Part shown: positions 42,517-49,981 of the stretch, piece by piece | Numbering within the stretch: position 1 is the first letter of the stretch | How the letters are laid out: the number at the start of each line of letters is the position of its first letter | Assembly (NCBI GenBank): GCA_025998755.1 | Contig: AP024674.1 | Location: 2,124,162 to 2,188,161 of the forward strand | From: Armatimonadota bacterium | GTDB taxonomy: Bacteria; Armatimonadota; UBA5829; DSUL01 | DNA length: 64,000 nucleotides | Direction of reading: 5' to 3' | Notes under the pieces: generated by a model | Told to the model about the DNA's origin: nothing | The model's input: only the letters and a program-made list of their open reading frames with translations | Database searches by the model: none | Translations under genes and position numbers: made by a program

Positions 42517-42918
42517 CTATCCCCGGCGGATCTCGTCGAGGTAGACTTCCCAGAGGCCGGACCAGGGGTAGCGCCGGGATGCGCGCTGAAGCTTGCGGCG
42601 CATGCGGCCGATAACGCGCCGGACGGCCTCCCGCGAGCATCCCCGGTCCCGCGCAATCCGGTGGGGCGGCTGGCCGGCCAGGAGCCGCTCCAGCGTGCCG
42701 TTTTCCAGATCCGTCAGATCGGCCAGTCTTGCCAGCTCGCGCACTTCGCGGCGCAGCAGATACATCCCCGGACGGAAGCACTCCACCGGGGGTAAGCCTC
42801 GCCCCCGCTCCAGTTTTCTCCGTTCACGGGCGATCTTTCGGCTCAAGTCCTTCTCCGAGCAGAACACGCCGGGCTCGGAGGTGGGCAGGACGGGGAAGCG
42901 CTCTTCCCGGACAGCCAT
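42517..42918 (-). CDS. Helix-turn-helix regulator of the head-gene cluster
   Basis: A 133-residue basic protein. The N-terminal 50 residues are charged, and the C-terminal half holds a sigma-70 region-4-like helix-turn-helix: LERLLAGQPPHRIARDRGCS then REAVRRVIGRMRRKLQ. It ends SRRYPWSGLWEVYLDEIRRG. Start ATG 42918 has AAGGA before it. It is divergent from the phage-type head genes, and a LexA-type palindrome lies at its predicted promoter, so I infer a late-gene activator or control protein. No DNA-binding target is proven. Confidence 0.68.
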   Translation of the reverse strand: MAVREERFPVLPTSEPGVFCSEKDLSRKIARERRKLERGRGLPPVECFRPGMYLLRREVRELARLADLTDLENGTLERLLAGQPPHRIARDRGCSREAVRRVIGRMRRKLQRASRRYPWSGLWEVYLDEIRRG

Positions 42919-42944: not shown

Positions 42945-42958
42945 CGAACATATGTTCT
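42945..42958. promoter_or_regulatory. LexA/DinR-type SOS box at the regulator promoter
   Basis: CGAACATATGTTCT contains the perfect palindrome GAACATATGTTC (42946-42957), which matches the GAAC-N4-GTTC form of the SOS box of Firmicutes, Actinobacteria and several other phyla. On the minus strand it follows a possible promoter, TTGCCG-N18-TATCAT, so it covers the transcription start of the regulator gene. LexA in this organism has not been seen; the match is to a family consensus. Confidence 0.65.
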
Positions 42959-42995
42959 ATGATATACCCATCTCGATGCCCTCGGCAACTGTTTC

Positions 42996-43106
42996 TATGC
43001 AAAAGTTTTCACGTTGCAGCCCTTGTACCTGGCACGGGCGACGAAAAAGCAGGTTGACGCAGGGGCCTTCTGACGCCCTTTATCCATGGGAGTGAACTTT
43101 TGCATA
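42996..43106. promoter_or_regulatory. 12-bp inverted repeats bracketing the divergent interval
   Basis: TATGCAAAAGTT at 42996-43007 recurs inverted as AACTTTTGCATA at 43095-43106, with 87 bases between. The arms are exact, AT-rich in a GC-rich setting, and the right arm lies just before the ribosome-binding site of the small terminase gene. They may be paired operator sites for the divergent HTH regulator, or ends of an insertion. Confidence 0.5.
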
Positions 43107-43120
43107 CACACAGGAGACAG

Positions 43121-43495
43121 ATGCCAACAGCGAAGCAGAGGCAGGCTCTGGACCTGCTGTTCGCCATGGCTCCCGAGGAGGCGGCGGCCCGGCTGGGCGT
43201 CCGGCCCGCCACGGTTCGCAGGTGGCTGGACGACCCGGCCTTCGCCAGGGCGTTGCGCAGACGGTGCGCGGAGCGCAGAGAAGCGGCAAGGCGCATCGCG
43301 GCGGAGGGCATACTGGCCGCCGCCCGGGAGCTGGCCCGGCAGGCGGGAGCGGGAGAGGAGAAGACGGCGGCGCGGTCGGCGCTGGATGTGCTGAAGGCGA
43401 GCGGAGTGCTGGAGGCGGCCGATGAAACCGGCAGCGTGGACGGTGCGGCCATAGCCGAGCTGATGGAGAACCTGGCCGCAGAGGAAGAAACTTGA
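43121..43495 (+). CDS. Small terminase-like HTH protein (Mu gp27 position)
   Basis: A 124-residue protein starting at ATG 43121 behind CAGGAGA. APEEAAARLGVRPATVRRWL is a helix-turn-helix, followed by a long helical stretch (RAEG-type helices up to ARSALDVLKASGVLEAADET) that suits an oligomerising small terminase subunit. It precedes the large terminase by a four-base overlap, the usual order of packaging genes. Small terminases vary greatly, so the call rests on position and shape more than on sequence identity. Confidence 0.7.
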   Translation: MPTAKQRQALDLLFAMAPEEAAARLGVRPATVRRWLDDPAFARALRRRCAERREAARRIAAEGILAAARELARQAGAGEEKTAARSALDVLKASGVLEAADETGSVDGAAIAELMENLAAEEET

Positions 43496-44859
43496 CGTGG
43501 GATAGCCGCCCGAAGCCCCGCATGGCGCTGGCCCGTGCGCTTTGGGGATGGCGTCCGCATCCCAGTCAGCGCGAGTGGCTGCTGGACGACTCGCCGGTGA
43601 AGGTGGCGGCATGCGGTCGGCGCTGGGGCAAGACGGAGTCCCAAGCCGTGGACGCCGCCACATTTGCGCTCGCCCGCCCCGGGTCCGTCCAGATGATCGT
43701 GGCGCCCACGTATGACCAGGCGAGGCTGATAGGCGGCGGAGTGGAGAGGCTGCTGACGGGATGCGCGCTGACGCGGCGGCTGGCGCGCATCCGCAGGACA
43801 CCCTATCCGCAACTGCAGGTCCTGGGCAGCCTGATCTCGGCCCGCAGCGCGGACGACGGCGGCCGGGCCCTGCGCGGTCACCGGGCGGACCGGGTGATGG
43901 TGGACGAGGCAGCATTTGTGCCGGAGAGCGTCATCGCCGACGTGATTCAGCCGATGCTGGCCGATACGGCGGGGCAACTGATCCTCATCAGCACACCCTA
44001 CGGGCGCAATCACTTCTGGCGAGCCTGGTGCGCCGGGCAGCAGTCCGGCGGGCGCATCCGATCGTTTCGCTTCCCCTCTGAGGCCAACCCGCACATCAGC
44101 CTAGACTACATCCGGCATCAGCGCGCGGAGCTGCCGGAGCGGGTATTCCGCACGGAGTATCTGGCGGAGTTTGCAGACGACTCATCTTGCGTGTTTCCCT
44201 GGCACGAGGTGGAGCAATGCGTCCGGTTGTGGGAGAGCACGGCGGATGCGCCGGAGAGCCGGGTGGTGGCCGGTGTGGACTGGGCGCGATACTCGGACTT
44301 TACCGCCTGCGTCGCCATCGAGGCGGGCGGATTTCCCTGGAAGGTGACCGCGCTGGACCGGTTTCACGGTCTCAGCTGGGAGGCCTCCCTCGAACGGGTG
44401 GCCGACTTCGTGGAGAGGACCGGAGCCCTGGCGGTGCTTTGCGATTCGACATCACTTGGGGATCCGCTGCTGGAGCAGCTGGACCGGCGGCTTGCATGGA
44501 GCCGGCTGGGAGCGGCGGCGGAGGGGCTGGTGTTCACCGCGCGAAGCAAACGCGACATCGTGGAGCACCTCTCCCTGCGCATTGCGCACAGGGAGATCGC
44601 CCTTCCGCCGCCGCGAGGGGTGGATGCCGCCGCGCTCCACCGGGAGCTGCTGGCCTTTGGGCGCGACGTGCGCGCTTCTGGTGCAGTGTCCTTCGGGGCT
44701 CCCACGGGAGAGCACGATGACTGCGTCATGGCTCTTGCGCTAGCCGCCTGGCGCGCCAGAAGCCTACCGGAGTTCGCCGTACGCCTGGAGCGCTCAAGCT
44801 GGAGCGATGAGGACGGCAGCCACTCCGTGGCCCTAAGGGACTTTACCGGCGGCTTTTGA
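43492..44859 (+). CDS. Phage terminase large subunit
   Basis: A 455-residue DNA-packaging motor. The Walker A motif is CGRRWGKTES (41-50), Walker B is DRVMVDEAAF (D138, E139), and the coupling motif is ILISTPYGRNHFWRAW. The C-terminal RNase H-like nuclease domain starts VVAGVDWARYSDFTACVAIE and includes LCDSTSLGDPL and GEHDDCVMALALA, with aspartates for two-metal cleavage. It cuts and pumps phage DNA into preformed heads. Start TTG 43492 overlaps the upstream gene. All catalytic motifs appear intact, so it is not obviously decayed. Confidence 0.93.
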   Translation: MTWDSRPKPRMALARALWGWRPHPSQREWLLDDSPVKVAACGRRWGKTESQAVDAATFALARPGSVQMIVAPTYDQARLIGGGVERLLTGCALTRRLARIRRTPYPQLQVLGSLISARSADDGGRALRGHRADRVMVDEAAFVPESVIADVIQPMLADTAGQLILISTPYGRNHFWRAWCAGQQSGGRIRSFRFPSEANPHISLDYIRHQRAELPERVFRTEYLAEFADDSSCVFPWHEVEQCVRLWESTADAPESRVVAGVDWARYSDFTACVAIEAGGFPWKVTALDRFHGLSWEASLERVADFVERTGALAVLCDSTSLGDPLLEQLDRRLAWSRLGAAAEGLVFTARSKRDIVEHLSLRIAHREIALPPPRGVDAAALHRELLAFGRDVRASGAVSFGAPTGEHDDCVMALALAAWRARSLPEFAVRLERSSWSDEDGSHSVALRDFTGGF

Positions 44860-44870
44860 GGAGGAGAGGA

Positions 44871-45998
44871 ATGCTGAAGACCCTTCTGGAGCGCCTGAGA
44901 CGGCGGCATCCGGAGACGGAGGAGCTGGCTGCGGGGCGGCGCAGCCTGTGGAGCAGGGATCCCGTCTTTCCGCCGTGGTCTCCCGACGATCTGGTGCGGC
45001 GAAGGGGGCTGGAGATCTATGACCGCATGCAGACGGACTCGCAGATTTCGGCCTGTCTGACCACCAAGAAGTTCGCCGTGCTGGCGGATGGCTGGAGCGT
45101 GATTGGCGCCTCGCCCCACCCGAGGGATCAGGAAGCTGCCCGCTTCTGTCACTGGGCGCTGAGCGAGATGCGCACACCGGTTCAGGACGTGCTCTTTTGC
45201 GTGATGGACGCCCTGGCGAAAGGCTACTCCATCAGCGAGATGAACTTCCGGCGCGTGAAAGAGGGGCCGTACCGCGGGCTCGTAACGCTGGACTCCATCA
45301 AGCACAAAGATCCCGCGCTGTTCGACTTCCGGACAGACGAGTATCTCAACGTAACCGGTCTGGTGCGACTGGGAAGCGACGGCGAGCCGGAGCGGGACCT
45401 TCCCCGGGAGAAGTTCGTGATCTACACTTACATGCCCGCCTATGAGGATCCGCGAGGGCGGTCCGACTTACGCCCGTGCTACCGCCACTGGTGGGTTAAG
45501 GATGTGGTGCAGAGGTTCCTGGCCATCCATCTGGAGCGGCACGGGTCGCCCGTGGTGAAAGGCACCTATCGTCGGGGGGCCACCCGTCAGCAGCAGGAGG
45601 AGCTTCTGCGCGTGCTGGAAGGCATCCGTCAGGAGACGGCCATCGTGGTGCCGGAGGACGTGACGGTGGAGCTGATGGAGGCAGCCTCCCGCGGAGAGCA
45701 GGGATATCTGGAGACACTCTGCTATCACGACCGGCAGATCGCCAAGGCAATTCTGGGGGAGACGCTGACACAGGAGGAGGGCTCCCGGACCGGCGCGCTG
45801 GCTCTGGCGAGGGTGCATCAGGACACTTTGCGGCAGCGGGTGAACAAGGTCCGCCGCGACCTGGAGGAGACGGTCATGCGCTCCCAGGTGCTGCGGGCGC
45901 TGACTGTGCTGAACTTCCCGGGCTCCGCCGTTCCTCGATTCTCGCTGGCGGGGGCTGGAGAAGAGACACGGGTAGAAGACAGGAGGAGCGACGTATGA
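44871..45998 (+). CDS. Portal protein, DUF935 (Mu gp29-like)
   Basis: A 375-residue portal protein of the DUF935 family. Conserved stretches include LEIYDRMQTDSQISACLTTK, AKGYSISEMNFRRV, KEGPYRGLVTLDSIKHKDPA, KFVIYTYMPAYEDPRGRSDL, HWWVKDVVQRFLAIHLERHG and ILGETLTQEEGSRTGALALA. Portals form the dodecameric entry ring through which DNA passes. Start ATG 44871 lies behind GGAGGAGAGGA. It is shorter than Mu gp29 (~510), mostly because the C-terminal tail is reduced. Its stop overlaps a 48-residue gene. Confidence 0.92.
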   Translation: MLKTLLERLRRRHPETEELAAGRRSLWSRDPVFPPWSPDDLVRRRGLEIYDRMQTDSQISACLTTKKFAVLADGWSVIGASPHPRDQEAARFCHWALSEMRTPVQDVLFCVMDALAKGYSISEMNFRRVKEGPYRGLVTLDSIKHKDPALFDFRTDEYLNVTGLVRLGSDGEPERDLPREKFVIYTYMPAYEDPRGRSDLRPCYRHWWVKDVVQRFLAIHLERHGSPVVKGTYRRGATRQQQEELLRVLEGIRQETAIVVPEDVTVELMEAASRGEQGYLETLCYHDRQIAKAILGETLTQEEGSRTGALALARVHQDTLRQRVNKVRRDLEETVMRSQVLRALTVLNFPGSAVPRFSLAGAGEETRVEDRRSDV

Positions 45999-46141
45999 GA
46001 CTGGGAATGCTGGCACGGCCGCTCTGGGCGGTGCTGGCCAGAGCTGTCAAGGAGCGGCTGCACAGGCTGGTGGACTCCATAGACGAGGAGGATCTGACGG
46101 AGTTCAAGGCGCGCCTGCACGAGCGCATCGAGCGGCTGTGA
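45995..46141 (+). CDS. 48-residue helical protein after the portal
   Basis: The frame MRLGMLARPLWAVLARAVKE continues as an amphipathic helix ending FKARLHERIERL. Its ATG overlaps the portal stop by four bases (ATGA). It occupies the place where Mu has gpF, a much larger head morphogenesis protein, but is far too short to be gpF. It could be a shortened remnant or a small head-assembly factor. Coding evidence is the tight overlap and codon use like that of its neighbours. Confidence 0.55.
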   Translation: MRLGMLARPLWAVLARAVKERLHRLVDSIDEEDLTEFKARLHERIERL

Positions 46142-46185
46142 GGCCCGGCTGCGGCGCCGGCGGGCAAGGAGAGGGGAAAGACCCA

Positions 46186-47040
46186 ATGGCAAGTGACACG
46201 CCCCGGCCGCAGTCCGGGGAGGTGGAGCGGACCGCCCGGATCTTTCGGGCCGGAAGCTACCCTGAGAGAGGACTTGAGATCGGCCCCGGCGATCTGGATG
46301 CCATCGCCGGGGCTTTCTGTTCGCCGGCCCCGGTGCTGGTGGAACACCTGGAGGGGCCGCTGCGTCTGGGATGGCTGACCCGCGTCTGGCGGGAGGGAAC
46401 ATCCCTGTTCGGCCGGCTTGTGTTCAGCCGGGCGGCCTGGGATCTGATGCGAGAGTGCGGGGCGCGCGCCCTGTCCCTGGGACTGGACCGGGAGACCCTG
46501 CGCATCCGTGAGGTCTCGCTGGTCAGCCGTCCCCGCGTGGCGGGGGCGCAGGTGTTCTCGCAGCGCGCTGTGAGCGCGGCGGTATTCCACGTGGACGATG
46601 AGGAGGAGAGTGCGGCATTGACGGAAACGCAAAAGGATGACATCCGGCCCGGGGGGACCGGAGAGCAACGCAGGGATGCGGCGGAGCTCAGGGAACGATT
46701 GAGGATCAGCGAGGCGGAGAAGACCCTGAAGCAGTTCATCGAGGAGGGGAAGATCGCCCCGGCAGCGGCCGGAGCGGCTTTGGCGATCCTGTGCGCGGAT
46801 GACCCGGCAGCAGTCTGCTTTGCGGACGGCAGCCGTTCCAGCGCGGCGCAGGCGTTCCGGCAGTTTCTGGAGGCCCAGCCGCCTGTGGTGCTGTTCGGCG
46901 AGACCGCCCCGGCGGGGTCACCTGGCCGCAGGCACGGAGTCTCGCGGGATCTGCTGGAAGCGTTCGGGCTGAGCGACGACGACATCGCCCGCTACGCGCG
47001 GATGAGCGAGGAGGACTGGAATGGCCGCATTGCAGGATGA
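46186..47040 (+). CDS. Prohead protease/scaffold protein, Mu gpI-like
   Basis: A 284-residue protein. The N-terminal half (ARIFRAGSYPERGLEIGPGD, APVLVEHLEGPLRLGWLTRV, GTSLFGRLVFS, GARALSLGLD) has the layout of Mu I-type or related capsid maturation proteases, with a likely catalytic His in VEHLEG and Ser in ALSLGLD. The C-terminal half is a charged helical scaffold segment (RDAAELRERLRISEAEKTLK) ending with GLSDDDIARYARMSEEDWNG, the kind of tail seen in Mu I proteins. By family knowledge the protease trims scaffold during head maturation. The start ATG 46186 follows GAGAGGGGAAAG. The end overlaps the next gene by 20 bases. Confidence 0.75.
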   Translation: MASDTPRPQSGEVERTARIFRAGSYPERGLEIGPGDLDAIAGAFCSPAPVLVEHLEGPLRLGWLTRVWREGTSLFGRLVFSRAAWDLMRECGARALSLGLDRETLRIREVSLVSRPRVAGAQVFSQRAVSAAVFHVDDEEESAALTETQKDDIRPGGTGEQRRDAAELRERLRISEAEKTLKQFIEEGKIAPAAAGAALAILCADDPAAVCFADGSRSSAAQAFRQFLEAQPPVVLFGETAPAGSPGRRHGVSRDLLEAFGLSDDDIARYARMSEEDWNGRIAG

Positions 47041-47434
47041 CCGCTACGTCTGGCGGCGCGACGGGCATATCCTCTGCATTCCCGTGAAACAGGGGGCGCG
47101 CATCTACAAGGGAGCCCTGGTTTGCCGCAGCGGCGGCTACGCCGTGCCGGCGGCTGACGCATCCGGCCTGAGCTTCGCCGGCGTGGCGCTGGAGAGCGTG
47201 GACAATACGTCCGGAGCAGACGGCGACGCCGAAGTGCGGGTCTGGCAGACAGGGGTTTTCCCCGTGTTCAAGGCCTCGGCGGCGATGGCCGACATCGGGC
47301 AGCCTGCTTGCTGTGTGGACGACCAGACCGTCGGGCTACCCTCCGCCACCACTCACGACGTGATCTGCGGCCGCATTGTGCGGGTGCTGGCCCCGGGGGA
47401 GGTGGAGGTAAAAATTGACGGGTCGGCGTTTTGA
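47021..47434 (+). CDS. Head decoration protein, DUF2190-like
   Basis: A 137-residue beta-rich protein. ILCIPVKQGARIYKGALVCR, GYAVPAADASGLSFAGVALE and VRVWQTGVFPVFKASAAMAD are typical of small capsid-decorating or capsid-stabilising proteins of the DUF2190 type, which trimerise on the outer shell. It lies between the protease/scaffold and the major capsid, the usual position. It starts within the upstream gene (20-base overlap). No signal or membrane segments. Confidence 0.75.
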   Translation: MAALQDDRYVWRRDGHILCIPVKQGARIYKGALVCRSGGYAVPAADASGLSFAGVALESVDNTSGADGDAEVRVWQTGVFPVFKASAAMADIGQPACCVDDQTVGLPSATTHDVICGRIVRVLAPGEVEVKIDGSAF

Positions 47435-47479: not shown

Positions 47480-48373
47480 ATGCTGACGGGATCGGACATC
47501 CCGGCCGGGTTGAGCGACGGGGTGCGAGCGCTGTTCTTCAAATCTCTGGAAAGCGCTCCAGGCCAGTACAGGAAGCTGGCGATGGTGCTGCCGTCGTCTC
47601 AGAGCCGGGAGACCTATGCCTGGCTTTCCGCCGTTCCGGGAATGCGGGAGTTCGTGGACGAGCGCCAGCCCTATGGGCTCCGGGAACATTCGTTCACCAT
47701 CGAGAACAAGACCTGGGAATCCACCATCCAGGTGGAGCGCACGGCGCTGGAGGATGAGCAGTACGGGCAGATCCGTCTGCGAATCCAGTCTCTGGCTGAG
47801 GCAGCCGCGCGTCACAAGGAGCAGCTTGTCTTCGAGCTGGTGCGGGACGGGTTCACTGCGCGCTGCCATGACGGGCAGACGTTCTTTTCGAATGCCCATC
47901 CCACGGGAGGCGGCACAGTCTCGAACCGGGGCGATGAGGAGCTTTCGTCCGCGGCGCTGCAGTCCGCCATGTCGCGGATGGCTCGTCTGAAGGACGATCG
48001 GGGCCAGCCACTGGGCATCCTGGCGGACACGCTGGTAGTGCCTCCGGAGCTGGAGTGGAAGGCGCTGGAGATCGTCACCAGCCCGCTGGATCCGGACGGA
48101 AGCGGCAATGCGGCCAATGTGCTGCGCGGACGGCTGGAGGTGATCGTCAGCCCGTATCTGACTGATCCGGATGACTGGTTCCTGTTCTGCACGAGGGGCG
48201 CTCTGAAGCCACTCATCCTGCAGGAGCGCACGTCCGTGGAGTTCCGCGGACTGGACTCCGGCTCCGCCGGCGAGGAGGCCTTTATGCGGGACAGGCTGCT
48301 GTACGGCGTGCGTGCCCGCTACAACGCAGGTTACGGACTGTGGCAGCTAGCGTTCGGAAGCAAAGTGAGCTGA
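47480..48373 (+). CDS. Major head protein, Mu gpT-like
   Basis: A 297-residue major capsid protein. ALFFKSLESAPGQYRKLAMV, the stretch PGMREFVDERQPYGLREHSF, TIENKTWESTIQVERTALED and GYGLWQLAFGSK match the Mu-like prophage major head subunit gpT, and VFELVRDGFTARCHDGQTFF with NAHPTGGGTVSN is another family block. It builds the icosahedral shell. GGAAAGGAGG precedes ATG 47480. The protein is full length and shows no internal breaks. Confidence 0.93.
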   Translation: MLTGSDIPAGLSDGVRALFFKSLESAPGQYRKLAMVLPSSQSRETYAWLSAVPGMREFVDERQPYGLREHSFTIENKTWESTIQVERTALEDEQYGQIRLRIQSLAEAAARHKEQLVFELVRDGFTARCHDGQTFFSNAHPTGGGTVSNRGDEELSSAALQSAMSRMARLKDDRGQPLGILADTLVVPPELEWKALEIVTSPLDPDGSGNAANVLRGRLEVIVSPYLTDPDDWFLFCTRGALKPLILQERTSVEFRGLDSGSAGEEAFMRDRLLYGVRARYNAGYGLWQLAFGSKVS

Positions 48374-48439
48374 ACTTGCCTGCGGGAGACCGGGCCGCGA
48401 CACCCGGTCTCCCTTTCGTTTTTGAAGGAGGTTCCTGCT

Positions 48440-48937
48440 GTGGGAGCAGCCAGAAACGTGTTGCCGGTGCTGGTGGATATCGCCCGGATGGCGGGGCAGG
48501 ATCTGTCCAGCGGGCGAGTCAGGACTGTGTGCGGCGGTCCCGCCGCCCTGCGCGTATACACGCCGGCGGAGTTGGGAATCAACGGAATATATCTGGGCGC
48601 CGGGGCCGCCAGCGCGTGGGTGGACGTGGCGGGCTACCGCTCGCTGACGGCCTTCATCCGGATCGAAGGGGTAGCAAGCAACTCGGCCAACATCAACCTG
48701 ATTGCCACGCCGGTGGGGCCGGAAGACACCTGGGGCACTGCCGAGCAATACCAGGCCACCATCGCCACGCGCGCCTCAGTAAACGGACCCGGGAACTACC
48801 TCGTGGCCAACGCCGGCAATCAGACCATCATCTCCGGGACGTCCTGGACCGGATGCATCGCACGCCGCGTGAAAATCGAGGTGGGACCCCTCGGCGCAGG
48901 GGCTCAGGCCTGGGCTTATCTGCTCTGTCTCCCGTGA
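48440..48937 (+). CDS. Head-cluster protein of unknown function
   Basis: A 165-residue protein. I start at GTG 48440, which has AAGGAGG seven bases upstream. After a helical N-terminus, the body is beta-rich (YTPAELGINGIYLGAGAASA, WVDVAGYRSLTAFIRIEGVA, RRVKIEVGPLGAGAQAWAYL), resembling a jelly-roll or Ig-like accessory such as a capsid fibre or Hoc-type decoration. No named family is recognised. It lies between the major head protein and the head-tail connector. Confidence 0.65.
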   Translation: MGAARNVLPVLVDIARMAGQDLSSGRVRTVCGGPAALRVYTPAELGINGIYLGAGAASAWVDVAGYRSLTAFIRIEGVASNSANINLIATPVGPEDTWGTAEQYQATIATRASVNGPGNYLVANAGNQTIISGTSWTGCIARRVKIEVGPLGAGAQAWAYLLCLP

Positions 48938-48968: not shown

Positions 48969-49403
48969 ATGCCTCTGTCTGTGACCCGTTCCGACGTGAA
49001 GCGAAAATGCATGGTGGCCTCTTCCGAGGCCACTTACGACAGTGCCATTGACGCGCTCATCGCGGAGATGCTGCCCGCCATCGAGCACTCGCTCGACCCA
49101 ATGTATGTTCAGGACACCTCGAACACCGGGCTTCAGGCGGAGCTGCGTCTGGGAGCGCTGGAGTTGATCGCCGCCGAGTTCCTGGCCCAGCGAGCTCGGG
49201 AACCCGGTTTCATGGAAGAGTTGCAGGTGGGCGGCGTGAGGCTGGGTCCGGCGTGGGAGCGGGGCAGAGCGCTTGCGGAGCAAGGCTCAGCCCGGCTTGC
49301 TCCCTACCAGCGCGCCTTGGGAGCAGCGGCGCAGGCGCTCCCGGCTTGCCGGACTGCCCGCGCCACCCCGCTGCTGACGCACGAGACGCTGAAGGAGGTC
49401 TGA
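48969..49403 (+). CDS. Head-tail connector protein, Mu gp36 (DUF1320)-like
   Basis: A 144-residue mostly helical protein. DAAIDALIAEMLPAIEHSLD-like region (SAIDALIAEMLPAIEHSLDP), YVQDTSNTGLQAELRLGALE and LIAAEFLAQRAREPGFMEEL fit the helical core of gp6/gp36-type adaptor proteins that extend the portal. The position just after the capsid genes agrees. It is the last clearly neck-like gene. The DUF1320 link rests on position and helical pattern, and I have not aligned it. Confidence 0.65.
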   Translation: MPLSVTRSDVKRKCMVASSEATYDSAIDALIAEMLPAIEHSLDPMYVQDTSNTGLQAELRLGALELIAAEFLAQRAREPGFMEELQVGGVRLGPAWERGRALAEQGSARLAPYQRALGAAAQALPACRTARATPLLTHETLKEV

Positions 49404-49409
49404 GACAAG

Positions 49410-49715
49410 ATGGGCATCCTGGCCGGCCGTGTGCGCCGGAAGCTGGAGGTGTTCGGGACGGCGGTCAACGTTGCCGGCAAAGGGACGCACCGGCTTCTGC
49501 TTCAGGACCTGACCGCGTCGCAGATGGCCATCTATCTGGACCCGGCGGAACAATCGCAGATGACGCTGCCGGGGGTGTTCGCTGTTGCGACGGCGGATGC
49601 GAACATCGTCGAGAACGATACCTTCACCGTAGACGGACGGACTTTCACGGTCCGCAAGGTGATCCGGCCGCGCCTGAAGGGTGAGGAGCTCTGCCGCGGT
49701 CTGCTGGCCTGGTGA
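49410..49715 (+). CDS. Putative head-completion protein
   Basis: A 101-residue beta-rich protein (MAIYLDPAEQSQMTLPGVFA, VENDTFTVDGRTFTVRKVIR) of a size and composition like head-closure or stopper proteins. It starts six bases after the connector gene. I recognise no named family. If it is a stopper, it would close the filled head; tail genes expected after it are missing. Confidence 0.6.
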   Translation: MGILAGRVRRKLEVFGTAVNVAGKGTHRLLLQDLTASQMAIYLDPAEQSQMTLPGVFAVATADANIVENDTFTVDGRTFTVRKVIRPRLKGEELCRGLLAW

Positions 49716-49750
49716 TAACCCGGCGGCGGTTCTGGAAAGGAGAGAAGGCC

Positions 49751-49981
49751 ATGCCCGACCAAACGGAGATTCTGAGCCGGCTGGCGGTGATCGAAAGCCG
49801 ACTGCAGGACATCCTGGGGCACCTGATGGATCTCCGGCGATACGTGCCGGACCGGGTTGTGGAGCATTCGGAGCGCCTGGAGCAGATTGAGCGCGCCCTG
49901 CGCAGCGTGGTCTGGGGAGTGGCGCTCGCTGCAGGAGGGCTTCTCAGCGCCTTCCTGGCGCACGTGTTCGGAAAGGGTTGA
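49751..49981 (+). CDS. XhlA-like coiled-coil membrane protein
   Basis: A 76-residue protein: ILSRLAVIESRLQDILGHLM and RVVEHSERLEQIERALRSVV form coiled-coil helices, and WGVALAAGGLLSAFLAHVFG is one C-terminal transmembrane helix. This is the layout of haemolysin XhlA, the small membrane protein of phage lysis modules in PBSX-type elements. It may take part in lysis, but no endolysin or XhlB-like holin follows. GGAAAGGAGAGAAGG precedes the ATG at 49751. It ends the cluster, facing the convergent DUF5916 gene 14 bases away. Confidence 0.68.
   Translation: MPDQTEILSRLAVIESRLQDILGHLMDLRRYVPDRVVEHSERLEQIERALRSVVWGVALAAGGLLSAFLAHVFGKG

Follow-up and report, generated by a model that had tools for sequence, protein, structure and literature searches.

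A cluster of phage head genes in this Armatimonadota genome is preceded by a small divergent regulator gene, and the gap between the two holds a palindrome that resembles an SOS box. We asked if this palindrome is a LexA operator, and if so, whether it could place the heads under the control of DNA damage. The window here means the whole 64-kb stretch of DNA that was analysed.

The palindrome covers the likely transcription start of the regulator

The sequence at 42946-42957, GAACATATGTTC, is a perfect 12-bp palindrome of the GAAC-N4-GTTC form, as originally claimed; the span 42945-42958 is the same with one flanking base per side. It sits in the gap between the divergent regulator gene (42517-42918, minus strand) and terS (43121), 1 bp from the predicted -10 element of the regulator. 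On the minus strand, TTGCCG, an 18-bp spacer and TATCAT lie ahead of the box, and the box therefore covers the likely transcription start. This bears out the placement given in the original prediction, with a promoter that was read by eye and not mapped. An alternative regulator start, TTG at 43002, gives a longer open reading frame and would place the box within the gene. Because the sister genome has a stop in this longer frame, we took ATG 42918 as the likely start codon, which leaves the box in the promoter and outside the regulator gene. The features of the intergenic region are:

42517-42918, minus strand: regulator, 133 aa, sigma-70 region 4 / LuxR-type HTH, start ATG 42918
42946-42957, no strand assigned: putative LexA operator (SOS box) GAACATATGTTC, from the palindrome, motif-model score and conservation
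42959-42964, minus strand: predicted -10 TATCAT of the regulator (read by eye, inferred)
42983-42988, minus strand: predicted -35 TTGCCG of the regulator, 18-bp spacer (read by eye, inferred)
42996-43007, no strand assigned: TATGCAAAAGTT element upstream of the regulator promoter, the same at the regulator in G001 and G003
43095-43106, no strand assigned: inverted copy AACTTTTGCATA, just upstream of terS

Measured against the published Firmicutes LexA consensus CGAACRNRYGTTYC, CGAACATATGTTCT matches at all core positions and differs in its final base (T, not C), and the box motif agrees with both this consensus and the published palindrome TACGAACATATGTTCGTA (PMC2248561).

The regulator box scores close to that of a Y-family polymerase gene

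The bare GAAC-N4-GTTC form is weak evidence, because it occurs 51 times in the 3.29 Mb genome compared with 43 times for a reversed control pattern. Within the window we counted four copies against 0.66 expected, and none of 100 shuffles reached four. We built a motif model from 22 boxes taken only from other genomes, each sitting either at a Y-family polymerase gene or at a regulator from another family, and applied it to 50 of the 51 genomic copies, each judged from its surrounding stretch, without a whole-genome scan. Scores from this model are rough, since two of the training boxes (G017, G015) were not upstream of the polymerase, yet fit the motif.

Among the 50 sites scored, the highest value was that of the Y-family polymerase site (238123; 26.5 bits), placing the same motif at another SOS gene of this genome, and the box at 42946-42957 ranked second (25.9 bits). 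Third and fourth were site 3137313, upstream of a TerS-like open reading frame (22.5 bits), and site 148993, inside thpR upstream of recA (21.9 bits); the remaining sites reached at most 16.3 bits, leaving only four of 50 above 17. The other copies in the window (13166, 25663 and 47684; scores of -4.6, 6.5 and 7.1) look like chance occurrences, and site 47684 was rejected as an operator for its low score and its coding position inside the major head gene.

The polymerase gene behind the best box (C1:237918-239343; L020 919-2344) looks frameshifted, with its catalytic and C-terminal domains in two overlapping frames. Its counterpart in the sister genome is a single 453-aa frame, and the copy here is either a pseudogene or an assembly error. 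The TerS-like frame, with its strong LexA box just upstream (C1:3137313), belongs to a second phage-like module (C1:3134718-3139507; L322 4719-9508) that also carries a D5-type primase and, on the opposite strand, a tyrosine recombinase.

The genome encodes a LexA with conserved cleavage residues and no GAAC-type box at lexA

We found a single LexA, which exceeds the TIGR00498 cut-off by a wide margin and has both the DNA-binding and the self-cleavage domain. Alignment to solved LexA structures showed that the Ala-Gly cleavage site and the Ser and Lys of the catalytic pair are conserved, and the recognition helix (SSPSTVQAHL) is of the first type (compare SSSSTVHAHL). The presence of the motif at lexA and recA had been put forward as a check, and the outcome was mixed: no GAAC-type box is present at lexA of this genome, where lexA overlaps the end of gyrA, and for recA we found a strong box only ~500 bp upstream, within thpR, which is not conserved in most relatives. 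As the exact box at recA is not conserved in the class, recA was dropped as the main SOS test. The criterion of LexA autoregulation through a GAAC-type box is not met in this genome; such autoregulation is usual in the regulon and is not required of each operator. Palindromes ~440 bp upstream of lexA in some relatives were rejected for middle bases that do not fit, and the one checked (L101) reads as coding (EHKFE).

Several class genomes encode a second LexA paralog (L096, L097, L102, L105, L106, L120, L121) with its own palindrome, GTAGAC-N4-GTCTAC, ahead of the gene. It precedes, by 34-63 bp, lexA paralogs with SLRGVT-HLDALE in place of SSSSTVHAHL as the recognition helix.

The box is conserved at the regulator across the class

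The exact GAAC-N4-GTTC form was present at the regulator in 11 class genomes (G000, G002, G003, G005, G007, G017, G018, G020, G022, G024, G026). At the same place, G004, G010, G012, G014, G015 and G016 instead carry GTAGAC-N4-GTCTAC with 0-2 mismatches, a form that 10 of 13 genomes sampled from other classes also have at their regulator (at most two mismatches). Shuffles in this comparison across genomes were simple base shuffles. G011 and G021, in which two domain searches detected no LexA, have neither box type at the regulator. Upstream of the Y-family polymerase, the box tends to accompany LexA: 14 of the 17 class genomes that have LexA carry it, against one of the five that do not (one-sided Fisher p 0.02).

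Some genomes provide counter-evidence. Sister genome G001 has LexA and a degenerate regulator site, TAACGCATGTTC; G008 has LexA and no box at its weak regulator match; and G002 has the box at both the regulator and the Y-family polymerase, with no LexA found in its 94% complete assembly.

The motif at the Y-family polymerase, the single LexA with its cleavage residues intact and the conserved box at regulator orthologs of the class support the SOS-box reading, and the motif's absence from related clusters, which would have refuted it, was not encountered, as it is present in related loci. We conclude that the palindrome at 42946-42957 is very probably a LexA operator, with LexA binding inferred and no binding data available. 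The apparent exchange of operator type at the same promoter position suggests that damage control of the regulator is selected for.

The head cluster is kept throughout the class

The genes facing the regulator make up a head and packaging cluster, preceded by a predicted promoter region similar to the TATAATTATGGGAG element that other families carry ahead of terS:

43054-43084, plus strand: predicted head-operon promoter TTGACG ... TTTATC, then CATGGGAG (inferred)
43121-43495, plus strand: small terminase subunit, terS
43492-44859, plus strand: large terminase subunit, terL
44856-45998, plus strand: Mu-type portal protein
46138-47040, plus strand: head maturation protease/scaffold
47021-47434, plus strand: cement/decoration protein
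47480-48373, plus strand: major head protein, Mu gpT family
48422-48937, plus strand: cluster protein conserved in the family, no assigned function
48969-49403, plus strand: conserved cluster protein, probable head completion protein (inferred from position)
49410-49715, plus strand: probable head-tail attachment-type protein (weak PF05354)
49712-49981, plus strand: small conserved protein with a C-terminal hydrophobic stretch, last cluster gene (a holin-like role is only a guess)

The major head gene was found in 25 of 28 class genomes, in single copy apart from two copies in G005, and gene order is kept in nearly all class genomes that carry the cluster. Distances between head proteins correlate with those between RecA proteins (Mantel r 0.79, p 0.0001, 23 genomes). 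From these comparisons, inheritance across the class looks largely vertical; old transfers are not excluded, because the deep branches of the head-protein and RecA trees are not identical. In comparison to the sister genome, the cluster genes are under purifying selection (dN/dS 0.10-0.35, portal excluded), with a value of 0.19 for the regulator. Relatives were also found on contigs labelled Fimbriimonadia and Chthonomonadia, and a viral contig set contributed no more than 17, with 55% identity for the best.

No tail genes were found among the cluster genes, and a genome-wide search with a single tail family (PF10145) gave no match. The cluster contains no clear lysis genes and is followed by a long opposite-strand gene that is not phage-like in appearance. 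The locus does not fit an intact prophage, since the cluster consists of head and packaging genes only, without integrase, replication or tail genes.

The same head protein occurs on contigs labelled Methanoregulaceae archaeon and Deltaproteobacteria (L204, L240), which are probably mis-binned Armatimonadota. In G024, parB and a competence gene of the ComEC type come directly after the head cluster (L184 14974-18741).

A proposed route from DNA damage to phage heads

In an undamaged cell, LexA would sit on the transcription start of the regulator, at the operator whose conservation we computed, and keep the regulator off; this binding is inferred. Upon DNA damage, active RecA would promote self-cleavage of LexA, the residues for which are present in the alignment, and the regulator would be made. 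Carrying a sigma-region-4-like domain, the regulator would then most likely activate the head operon, computed to be class-wide, from the promoter upstream of terS. Its role as an activator and the head operon as its target are both inferred. Damage inducibility of the cluster, which the original prediction asserted, is likewise an inference, because the box here lies at the regulator and not at terS, and induction has not been shown. We regard the complete chain from LexA through the regulator to the head operon as likely, with less assurance than the operator itself, and phage-head production is probably wired to DNA damage.

The explanation that competes best is that the LexA operator does control the regulator, while the regulator targets other genes and its proximity to the heads in this family is incidental. 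Most families do not have the regulator next to the head genes (in G007 the distance is 83 kb), and a late-promoter motif, CTTRTAATTAYGRRA (29 copies versus 3 in the reversed control, in one family), is present at terS and also upstream of a few other genes that do not encode head proteins. Against this, one family has terS beside the regulator in two layouts, divergent in G000 and G001 and co-directional in G002, where terS lies downstream of the regulator within ~50 bp. Moreover, an operator-like ACTA-N-TAGTGAACA element is common to the regulator and terS promoters in one family, and in G017 and G018 terS is immediately preceded by LexA boxes, with a further LexA box upstream of the major head gene of G018. 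Incidental proximity is thus unlikely, and remains a possibility to be taken seriously. The ACTA-N-TAGTGAACA and CTTRTAATTAYGRRA elements point to a putative small regulon; binding of the regulator to them has not been shown. In most genomes of one family (L323-L351), CTTRTAATTAYGRRA recurs 1-5 times, a possible dispersed regulon. The cement gene of G004, G010 and G012 also contains boxes, which were rejected as operators because they are coding and fall where the protein is conserved.

Small HTH proteins can repress, and no computed result fixes the sign of regulation. If the regulator were a repressor of the head operon, cleavage of LexA would shut the heads down further. However, 10 of 15 regulator family members have an HTH of the sigma-region-4 type, as in positive late regulators, and the boxes directly at terS in G017 and G018 imply that damage induces the heads, leaving repression improbable.

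Both of these alternatives accept the LexA operator. Its location at the regulator's own promoter would also fit a binding site for the regulator itself, that is, autoregulation; yet Y-family polymerase genes carry the same box, a lexA paralog is preceded by the alternative type, and two genomes without detected LexA lack both types, so that we give this idea very little weight. A chance palindrome, conceivable from the lack of genome-wide enrichment of the bare form (51 versus 43), can be set aside, given that an independently trained model ranks the site high and that it is conserved at this position of the promoter across the class.

Relation to known systems

The box resembles the Gram-positive-type LexA operator (SOS/Cheo box) in its GAAC-N4-GTTC core, its agreement with the Firmicutes palindrome (PMC2248561), its overlap with a promoter and its presence at a Y-family polymerase. 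It differs in that it is found in Armatimonadota, that lexA itself lacks the box, and that some relatives have a second LexA and GTAGAC-N4-GTCTAC at the same place.

The cluster had been likened to PBSX-like defective phages. PBSX of Bacillus subtilis encodes a sigma-like positive control factor, Xpf, and is induced by replication arrest or DNA damage (PMC9836290). The head genes and the sigma-like regulator beside them, comparable to Xpf, uphold the likeness, whereas the lack of tail and clear lysis genes in the cluster, the absence of any phage repressor that we could see, the largely vertical inheritance and the spread over the whole class and beyond do not, and PBSX serves as an analogy only. 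Because no tail genes were found, the cluster more closely resembles a domesticated head module of the kind seen in gene transfer agents (GTAs). With RcGTA-type agents, too, a large clade retains head and terminase genes of phage origin as a locus of the host, and the criterion that structural genes be inherited with the host over such a clade is fulfilled here (25 of 28 class genomes, synteny, RecA correlation). LexA influences RcGTA indirectly through CckA (PMC6363796, PMC9638019), in contrast to the putative LexA operator at the regulator itself in this locus, where the head genes are of Mu gpT type and tail genes were not found.

No Armatimonadota SOS regulon or gene transfer agent was described in the literature that we searched. 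We tentatively propose, as a possibility that we do not yet favour over its absence, that an ancient phage-head system, domesticated and possibly a GTA, is common to the Armatimonadota and under LexA control phylum-wide, and that lineages with a second LexA changed the operator and kept the control. A cluster of phage head genes that a whole bacterial class has retained would then be tied to the SOS response, the exchange of LexA operator types at one promoter position would offer a natural experiment, and the direct prediction is that head particles should appear after DNA damage.
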